From the NCBI RefSeq assembly GCF_001553035.1, contig NZ_KQ959982.1, forward strand, positions 1-46,876: 46,876 nt of DNA, read 5' to 3'. Below are positions 1,376 to 42,631 of this stretch, piece by piece (within the stretch, counting starts at the first letter, position 1; each line of letters opens with the position of its first letter). The position numbers and the translations under genes were made by a program. Source of the stretch: Gemella haemolysans (GTDB lineage: Bacteria > Bacillota > Bacilli > Staphylococcales > Gemellaceae). The notes below the pieces were generated by a model. That model did not search any database. It saw nothing but the letters and a program-made list of their open reading frames with translations, and was not told where the DNA came from.

Positions 1376-2113
1376 ATGAGAATAAATGAAGTCGCAAAAC
1401 TTACAGGAGTTAGTGCAAGAACGTTGCAATATTATGACGAGATAGGATTATTGATTCCAGAAAAATTAAATAATGGGTATAGAGATTATTCAGATGAGAA
1501 TTTAGATAAACTTCAAAAGATTCTATTTTATAGATTTCTAAAGTTTAAGTTAAATGATATAAAAGAATTACTTGATGCAGATATTGATAGTTTAAAAATA
1601 CTTGAACAGCAACGTGAATTAATTTTAAAAGAAAAAGAGAATTTTGAAATAATTCTTCATAATATAGAAAAAACAATAAAAACATATAAAGGAGAACAAA
1701 AAATGACTATAGAAGAAAAATTTAACGGATTTAAAAAAGAGGACTTGAATAAGTATGAAGATCAAGCTATAGAAAAATATGGAAAAGGAACAATAGAAGA
1801 ATCTAAAAAAAGACAGAGTGGTAAAGAAGATATCGTTTCTGAGAAATTTAATAGTGTTTTTCGTTCAATGGCTGAATATAGAAAAAATAATATAGATATA
1901 GAAGAAAAAGAAGTTCAATCGAAAGTCGAAGAATTATATAACTATATGAATAAGTATGCTTTTGATTGTAGTGTAGAAGTATTCTCCTATATAGGAAAAG
2001 GATATTCTCAAAATCCAGAATTTAAAAATAATATAGATAAATTTGGAGAAGGGGTGGCTGAATATACTTCAAAAGCCATAAATGCATATTGTAAAAGTAG
2101 ATTAAACAAGTAA
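1376..2113 (+). CDS. TipA-like MerR-family transcriptional activator
   Basis: DNA-binding regulator of 245 aa. Residues 1-68 form the winged-helix MerR domain (INEVAKLTGVSARTLQYYDE, then YRDYSDEN), 75-105 a helix likely to dimerise, and about 115-245 a TipAS-type ligand-recognition domain. TipAS domains bind thiopeptide or other bulky antibiotics; ligands of this homologue are unknown. The frame opens earlier at a GTG (1346), but AGGAG is placed 5 nt before the ATG at 1376, which also gives a canonical MerR N-terminus. A second strong ribosome binding site lies inside the gene before Met110. Transcribed alone, with an overlong-spacer promoter. No resistance or efflux gene is adjacent, so its targets besides itself are not visible here. 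Confidence 0.88.
   Translation: MRINEVAKLTGVSARTLQYYDEIGLLIPEKLNNGYRDYSDENLDKLQKILFYRFLKFKLNDIKELLDADIDSLKILEQQRELILKEKENFEIILHNIEKTIKTYKGEQKMTIEEKFNGFKKEDLNKYEDQAIEKYGKGTIEESKKRQSGKEDIVSEKFNSVFRSMAEYRKNNIDIEEKEVQSKVEELYNYMNKYAFDCSVEVFSYIGKGYSQNPEFKNNIDKFGEGVAEYTSKAINAYCKSRLNK
1691..2113 (+). CDS. Internal TipAS-like ORF (probable second product)
   Basis: Inside the MerR gene and in the same frame, AAAGGAG ends at 1694 and is followed 8 nt later by ATG (1703). This would produce a free 136-aa ligand-binding domain beginning MTIEEKFNGF. In Streptomyces tipA the same arrangement yields the abundant TipAS protein, which sequesters antibiotic without binding DNA. The site sits exactly at the linker between dimerisation helix and ligand domain. 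Translation from it is an inference. The feature start includes the ribosome binding site; coding begins at 1703. Confidence 0.6.
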   Translation, partial: GEQKMTIEEKFNGFKKEDLNKYEDQAIEKYGKGTIEESKKRQSGKEDIVSEKFNSVFRSMAEYRKNNIDIEEKEVQSKVEELYNYMNKYAFDCSVEVFSYIGKGYSQNPEFKNNIDKFGEGVAEYTSKAINAYCKSRLNK

Positions 2114-41602: not shown

Positions 41603-42631
41603 ATGGATTGGTCAGTAGCTTTACCAAATATTTGGTTCTTACTTATAACAATACTATTTACAGGATTCTTCGTATTAGAAGGATATGACTTCGGAGTTGG
41701 TGTACTAGCTCAAGTACTAGGTAAGACTGATGAAGAAAAACGTGTTTACTTCAATACAATCGGTCCTTTCTGGGATGCAAACGAAGTTTGGCTATTAACA
41801 GGTGGTGGAGCGATGTTCGCAGCTTTCCCAATCTGGTATGGTAAATTATTCAGTGGTTACTATATCGCGTTCGTGTTAATGTTAGTGGCGTTAATCTTAC
41901 GAGGCGTATCATTTGAATTTAGAGGTAAATTAGGAGATAATAGAACTTGGATTAAATCATATGATATAGCAATGTTTGTTGGTAGCTTACTTCCTCCAGT
42001 ATTATGGGGAGTTGCAGTAGCTAACTTCATGACAGGAGCAAACCTTGACGCTAAGAAAAACTTAGTTGATGGTTTCTTAGGTTTATTATCACCATTTACT
42101 ATCCTTGGAGGAGTAATGATGTTACTTCTAATGTTAGTTCACGGAGCTCAATTCTTAGCTCTTAAAACTACAGGAGAATTAAGAAATGCAGCTCGTGCAA
42201 CATCTGCATTATTATTCCCATTTGCTGCGGTAGTAACATTAGTATTTGCTATTTGGGCATTATTTAAAACAGATATCTTTACAACAAACTACTATGTTGG
42301 TTTAGTATTAGCATTAGTAGCGGTAGCATTCTTTGTGTTATCATTTGTTTTAAACTTTAAAGGTCGTGACTTAGGTGCATTCTTAAGTACATCAGGAACA
42401 TTAGCGTTCCTAACTCTAAGTGTCTTCGCAGGTATGTTCCCACGTGCTATAATAAACAGTAATGATGTTAGTCAATCACTATTTATTTATGATGCTGCGA
42501 GTGGAGTATACACTCTAAGACTTATGACAATAGTTGCATTATTCCTATTGCCATTCGTTTTAGGATACCAAGTTTGGTCATATTCTATTTTTAGAAAACG
42601 ACTAACTAAAGAAGATAAATTGGAGTATTAG
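41603..42631 (+). CDS. cydB: Cytochrome bd quinol oxidase subunit II
   Basis: Second core subunit of cytochrome bd, 342 aa with about eight to nine membrane helices. FFVLEGYDFGVG and GPFWDANEVWLLTGGGAMFAAFP are the family signatures. AAGGAGGT lies at the end of cydA, and the ATG follows the cydA stop after one base. The cydD start comes three bases after its stop codon. Confidence 0.96.
   Translation: MDWSVALPNIWFLLITILFTGFFVLEGYDFGVGVLAQVLGKTDEEKRVYFNTIGPFWDANEVWLLTGGGAMFAAFPIWYGKLFSGYYIAFVLMLVALILRGVSFEFRGKLGDNRTWIKSYDIAMFVGSLLPPVLWGVAVANFMTGANLDAKKNLVDGFLGLLSPFTILGGVMMLLLMLVHGAQFLALKTTGELRNAARATSALLFPFAAVVTLVFAIWALFKTDIFTTNYYVGLVLALVAVAFFVLSFVLNFKGRDLGAFLSTSGTLAFLTLSVFAGMFPRAIINSNDVSQSLFIYDAASGVYTLRLMTIVALFLLPFVLGYQVWSYSIFRKRLTKEDKLEY

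Follow-up and report, generated by a model that had tools for sequence, protein, structure and literature searches.

In the available accounts of Streptomyces lividans tipA, one gene joins a MerR half to a TipAS domain, gives two in-frame products and is subject to autoregulation (PMC7762955, PMC6078987, PMC2893106). For the albA gene of K. oxytoca, a short form, AlbAS, is stated to arise from an in-frame start (PMC12531866), and in the account available to us both forms of AlbA were still awaiting in vivo identification (PMC6078987). Production of two proteins from one reading frame is therefore already known in the case of tipA and has been stated of albA; what is new here is the spread of the internal start and the constraint upon it. 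Searches of the open-access literature found no report of a Gemella tipA gene, or of translation starting inside TipA-class genes in Bacilli, which is not proof of absence. The gene described below comes from Gemella haemolysans and lies in a stretch of 46,876 nucleotides that was analysed as a whole (hereafter the window). From its sequence and by analogy with S. lividans tipA, we read it as one autoregulated gene that would yield a full-length sensor together with a shorter protein that binds the drug, a reading to which we assign a probability of about 0.82.

The tip gene (1376-2113, on the + strand like every feature of the gene given below) encodes a predicted MerR-type regulator with a TipAS domain, of 245 aa and 28.9 kDa. 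An N-terminal MerR-type helix-turn-helix is present at residues 1-68 (1376-1579), which match Pfam MerR_1 (PF13411) at 63.7 bits against a cut-off of 21.6; PF00376 also scores above its cut-off, at 55.8 bits. The TipAS domain occupies residues 127-238 (1754-2089), where PF07739 is matched over its entire profile (1-117) at 77.6 bits (cut-off 23.8). Translation of the long product would start behind AGGAG at 1366-1370, with an anti-Shine-Dalgarno duplex of -6.5 kcal/mol. A stronger candidate, AAAGGAG at 1688-1694 (-8.8 kcal/mol), is separated by 8 nt (AACAAAAA) from an ATG at 1703-1705 that is in frame with 1376, encodes Met110 of the long product and lies 17 residues upstream of the TipAS profile start. 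In the predicted fold both this internal Shine-Dalgarno sequence and its ATG are mostly unpaired, with a mean probability of 0.84 each. The gene thus carries an internal in-frame start with its own Shine-Dalgarno sequence at the domain boundary, the sequence signature of a two-product gene. The predicted short product (1703-2113) is a free TipAS protein of 136 aa and 15.93 kDa, which on its own matches PF07739 at 80.6 bits. This motif, its 8-nt distance from an in-frame ATG at 1703 on the MerR/TipAS boundary, and an open frame for a 136-aa, 16-kDa product had all been put forward in the preliminary description and are borne out; of the coordinates given there, those of the ATG stand, whereas the start of the site at 1691 had cut off three bases of a motif that begins at 1688.

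Upstream of the gene, a putative MerR-type promoter/operator at 1302-1332 was found by reading and by promoter scan. It comprises TTGACC, a 19-nt spacer with the imperfect dyad ACGTAACGT, and TATAAT. Long spacers are the arrangement of MerR-controlled promoters, and it is on this geometry that the gene is assigned a MerR-type promoter of its own. A promoter with a 19-nt spacer was found by the scan upstream of all 12 tip genes listed for the family to which the window belongs. With up to two mismatches, the operator pattern occurred at one site genome-wide, at the tip gene, as did the reversed control pattern, also at one site. The gene is flanked by a gene for a QueT-like transporter and, beyond an L10 leader, by what we take to be rplJ, a name that we assign from the leader and from its sequence; no drug transporter adjoins the tip gene. 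Because there is no adjacent drug transporter and a single operator site at the stringency used, the short protein itself would, if made, be the plausible output of the circuit. Among RNA families, the search at the tip gene returned the L10 leader downstream and no other. The position of the tip gene directly before this leader and rplJ-rplL (2201 onward) is likely a coincidence; thiopeptides act near the ribosomal stalk, and the stalk genes are close by. The QueT-like gene has a long leader (540-720) with a terminator-like hairpin at 656-685 and no Rfam family at threshold; perhaps it is an attenuator or riboswitch not yet described, which might respond to a queuosine precursor.

Instead of arising from a start within the long mRNA, a short protein could be made from a promoter of its own inside the gene. 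A weak pair (TTTAAA or TTAAAA, 17-18 nt, AATAAT, with a TG) does lie at 1624-1653, but the stretch scanned there holds 18 such sites where shuffled sequences hold 13.4 (sd 4.2), and the -10-like AATAAT is not conserved in the Gemella alignment, where it reads, for example, GTGATT in locus L004. With a site count near that of the shuffles and an element that is not kept, an internal promoter is not supported and we consider it very improbable.

When the internal site was judged within the window and the gene alone, it was unexceptional. AAAGGAG followed after 4-10 nt by ATG occurs four times in the window against 1.31 expected, and four occurrences were reached in 2 of 100 shuffles, so that local over-representation beyond chance is weak. 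An anti-Shine-Dalgarno duplex of -8 kcal/mol or better precedes 3 of the 290 internal in-frame ATGs of the window, at two sites. The second of these, at 42116 and 42119 inside cydB (41603-42631), is probably there by chance. Synonymous shuffling of the Gemella gene by itself produced an equally strong site in 66% of shuffles, which is not significant. Statistics at the level of the window or of the single gene were accordingly rejected as proof, and the argument rests on comparison between genomes.

Full-length homologues were found in all nine genomes of the genus, with protein identity down to 45%, and each of the nine has an intact copy with an in-frame boundary ATG and a Shine-Dalgarno sequence (duplexes of -5.9 to -9.0 kcal/mol). 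AAAGGAG itself is present in G000, G001, G003, G004, G005, G006, G008 and the second copy of G007, while G002 has a weaker AAAGGA (-5.9). The motif lies one base off its usual position, and encodes R-R or R-K, in the second G007 copy, G002 and G010. That close relatives might lack the site had been named beforehand as the observation that would speak against an internal start, and this was not encountered.

Beyond the genus, PF07739 was matched in 128 of 157 genomes of the host order and in 307 of 398 genomes sampled from the class Bacilli. A total of 217 TipAS loci were placed and 211 kept; clustering at 75% identity left 124, and 117 of these were full-length, with at least 110 codons upstream. 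Locus L232 was left out for want of an open TipAS frame that was long enough; a filter or a decision by hand removed L058 (solely because its frame was longer than the filter allowed), L089, L213, L240 and L241. The sample is uneven: the searches of order and class gave 30 loci plus 60 hand-chosen each, among the matches listed, the weakest class-level matches are under-sampled, and all 24 loci from the 22 genomes of genus g41 were included.

An in-frame ATG 9-75 nt upstream of the TipAS profile was present in 113 of these 117 non-redundant full-length genes and lacking in four. When each boundary was scored by the best ATG of a 23-codon window, 89 of 117 genes had a duplex of -8 kcal/mol or better, compared with 4 of 931 windows of equal size taken from other parts of these genes; in the other 28 genes the boundary duplex fell short of this value. 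The value was reached in five of seven genes from the Gemella family, 39 of 53 from the rest of the order, 41 of 51 from other Bacilli and four of six from g41. Before clustering, the figures were 166 of 204 full-length loci at -8 kcal/mol or better and 197 of 204 with the ATG. In 12 genomes of the order, MerR genes without TipAS had such a site at codons 80-140 in 1 of 19 cases, against 8 of 10 for TipAS genes; this comparison used 30 loci of 41 matches, less L251, whose position in the locus was cut. Conservation among homologues, which the preliminary description had proposed to look for, is thus widespread, and its idea of a design special to an AT-rich coccus falls away, since the arrangement is common among Bacilli and occurs in some other phyla too.

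Eleven homologues from named plasmid-collection records, hand-chosen among 40 of 669 records, gave a similar picture, with a boundary in-frame ATG in nine and duplexes of -5.9 to -11.6 kcal/mol. The values were -9.4, -8.6, -8.5 and -7.4 for four Streptomyces genes, -11.6 for Rhodococcus, -8.9 for Pelagibacterium, -8.9 for Acetoanaerobium and -5.9 for Legionella. A Listeria gene (L281) has the boundary peptide KGEITM and an internal Shine-Dalgarno sequence of -8.9 kcal/mol. In the Nonomuraea homologue, whose boundary sequence resembles S. lividans TipAS, no boundary start was found. The Tsukamurella gene, of the S. lividans TipAS type, has an ATG with a Shine-Dalgarno duplex of -9.3 kcal/mol six residues upstream of the GITLT stretch.

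A motif at a domain boundary may be kept because the protein needs it. Under this explanation, K-G-E-x-x-Met is retained at the junction between coiled coil and helix, the Shine-Dalgarno sequence is a by-product of the Lys-Gly-Glu codons, and no translation starts there. KGE is indeed the commonest peptide at the boundary, the preferred codons of an AT-rich Gemella gene yield AAAGGAGAA anyway, and the helices right after the boundary are described, in the part of the structural work available to us, as contacting the DNA-binding domain and lying in the dimer and DNA-binding interface (PMC7762955). However, when codons of the 117 genes were shuffled synonymously and scored by the same best-of-window statistic, a mean of 47.3 genes (sd 4.5, maximum 59 in 500 shuffles) had a duplex of -8 kcal/mol or better, never matching the 89 observed. 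The amino acids therefore account for roughly half of the strong sites, and the remainder is due to codon choice. Nor is the core tied to one peptide: a core was recognisable in all but one (L035) of the 113 genes with an ATG, and in 9 of these 112 a plain AGGAG stands in another reading frame, where it encodes RRIN, NEEIN, KEEKH, QEEAE and the like and not KGE. This count rises to 21 of 112 if runs of G are included, the placing of which is ambiguous. The motif also persists at a free TipAS gene (in G051, described below) from which the coiled coil is entirely absent. At the level of sequence, the internal site is conserved across the family beyond amino-acid needs, and an explanation from protein needs without a start is unlikely.

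Shine-Dalgarno-like motifs within genes have also been proposed to slow ribosomes, and the internal site could be a pause between the two domains that helps folding, again with no start. Such a pause would not require an in-frame ATG at a set spacing, yet the ATG is almost always there and the first G of the GGAG core lies exactly 12 nt upstream of it in 86 of the 112 genes. In G051, moreover, the site is the only visible ribosome binding site of a gene. We regard a pause as slightly less probable still than an internal promoter, and return to an internal start as the preferred account of the motif.

Genes for TipAS without a MerR half were found at several loci. Compared with the syntenic loci of G049 and G057 (L285 and L286), that of G051 (L284) lacks about 333 bp, from the first ribosome binding site to the internal one, which is the MerR half. 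The deletion junction reads AAAGGAG; the motif is present at both ends in G057, and in G049 the first ribosome binding site is AATGGAG. G051 retains a MerR-type promoter (TTGACC-19-TAATTT), followed by AAAGGAG and by an intact TipAS frame of 139 aa, with a dN/dS of 0.17 to G057, a pairwise value that also covers the time before the deletion. A profile search of the order found no further TipAS gene in G051. Recombination between the two ribosome binding sites would explain this deletion. A free TipAS gene preceded by a Shine-Dalgarno sequence of its own is likewise present in G072, and in genus g12 seven genomes have a free-standing TipAS paralogue (L292-L298) beside the full-length gene, with pairwise dN/dS of 0.08-0.29 in those 20 of the 21 pairs for which an estimate was obtained. 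The constraint on these free genes indicates that selection can maintain TipAS by itself as a gene product. GGGTAAA occurs upstream of all seven g12 free genes and by eye recalls promoters of general-stress sigma factors.

These genes could also be taken to mean that the MerR half is being lost and that TipAS is the sole useful product, at least in some Gemella. In the G007 copy next to rplJ (L011/L290), the MerR half is broken by a stop at codon 8 and by a shift of frame immediately upstream of the internal Shine-Dalgarno sequence, with the TipAS frame, its Shine-Dalgarno sequence and its ATG still open. A second, full-length copy is nevertheless retained elsewhere in the same genome, the MerR half has low dN/dS among intact copies, and in eight of the nine Gemella genomes, that of the window included, the full-length gene is intact and is the sole TipAS gene. 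This explanation by loss of the MerR half is about as improbable as a pause site. The broken copy of G007 was also considered as a natural experiment and rejected as proof, because both halves have low dN/dS and the TipAS half is itself broken in G128 and G416; the lesions in G007 look recent.

The 136-aa product was modelled with AlphaFold2 at a mean pLDDT of 87.6, with residues 1-7 below 50. The best PDB folds for the model were TipAS (2mbz and 1ny9), followed by AlbA; matches ranked below these were helical folds only, without evident relation. Against 2mbz the model gave a Foldseek probability of 1.00 and a TM of 0.75, and a VIA Z of 12.3 with rmsd 3.1 over 126 aligned residues. The low-confidence N-terminal residues fit the loose N-terminal residues described for apo TipAS in the account available to us. 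In S. lividans TipAS, we take the second cysteine to be Cys214 of TipAL and the thiostrepton acceptor; it aligns with Tyr96 of the Gemella short form, and a cysteine stands at this position in 1 of 55 Bacilli sequences (alignment A1). With a Tyr where a thiostrepton-type acceptor would have its cysteine, we do not expect Gemella to capture thiopeptides covalently in the S. lividans manner, judging by the alignment. In view of this Tyr, the predicted short product is best called a putative antibiotic-binding protein.

Taken as an autoregulated gene with two products, the locus would work as follows. The MerR-type promoter at 1302-1332 would give one mRNA, on which initiation at 1376 would make the long form, a MerR activator with a C-terminal TipAS domain as its small-molecule sensor, and initiation at 1703 from the internal AAAGGAG would release the free 136-aa TipAS domain. 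Ligand on the long form would raise transcription of the tip gene and with it the amount of short form, which would bind and soak up further ligand; as both forms would come from one mRNA, induction would raise sensor and sponge together. Gene anatomy, promoter geometry, conservation of the site and free TipAS genes elsewhere are what was seen in the sequences, and they carry the half of this reading that concerns production of two forms. Initiation in vivo, activation by ligand and sequestration are what we infer from them, and the ligand-binding half leans on the analogy with S. lividans tipA, drawn from those parts of the published record available to us (PMC7762955, PMC6078987, PMC2893106, PMC12531866, PMC9909328, PMC3917276).

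Beyond the one gene, it seems likely that the internal ribosome binding site is a standing, RNA-selected part of TipA-class genes and that in Bacilli almost all of these genes are sensor-plus-sponge pairs from one frame, in which the two ribosome binding sites act as direct repeats and a deletion between them frees the sponge, as in G051. If initiation is real, TipA-class genes of Bacilli make a free drug-binding protein that has been missed by annotations and by studies of a single protein. For S. pneumoniae D39, profiling with the initiation inhibitor retapamulin is reported to show peaks at internal starts (PMC9426450). What was an assumption taken from one Streptomyces gene thereby becomes a prediction for TipA-class genes of Bacilli generally.

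Among known systems, S. lividans tipA shares the two-product anatomy that the preliminary description had drawn from it, but not the position of the start codon: Gemella Met110 aligns with residue 114 of TipAL, whereas the solved TipAS construct, as described in the source available, starts at G111, so that the Gemella start lies four codons downstream of the G111 region. The TipAS halves also have weak sequence similarity (phmmer E 2.3e-5). The best solved relative is the full-length Lmo0526 of Listeria (PDB 3qao, E 1.5e-46), which, unlike the gene considered here, is treated just as a full-length regulator in the available text, where an internal start goes unmentioned. SkgA of Caulobacter crescentus (7cla, E 5.7e-26) is a TipA-class protein similar over its full length, and Mta of Bacillus subtilis (1jbg, E 1.2e-20) one similar over the MerR half; both differ in being handled, in the accounts available, as full-length proteins and truncation constructs. 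The AlbAL/AlbAS pair has the same combination of a MerR half and a drug-binding half, the latter presumed for Gemella. AlbAS as described in the part of the source available has 221 aa and two tandem TipAS-like domains, whereas the predicted Gemella short form has 136 aa and a single domain, with one full-length TipAS match.
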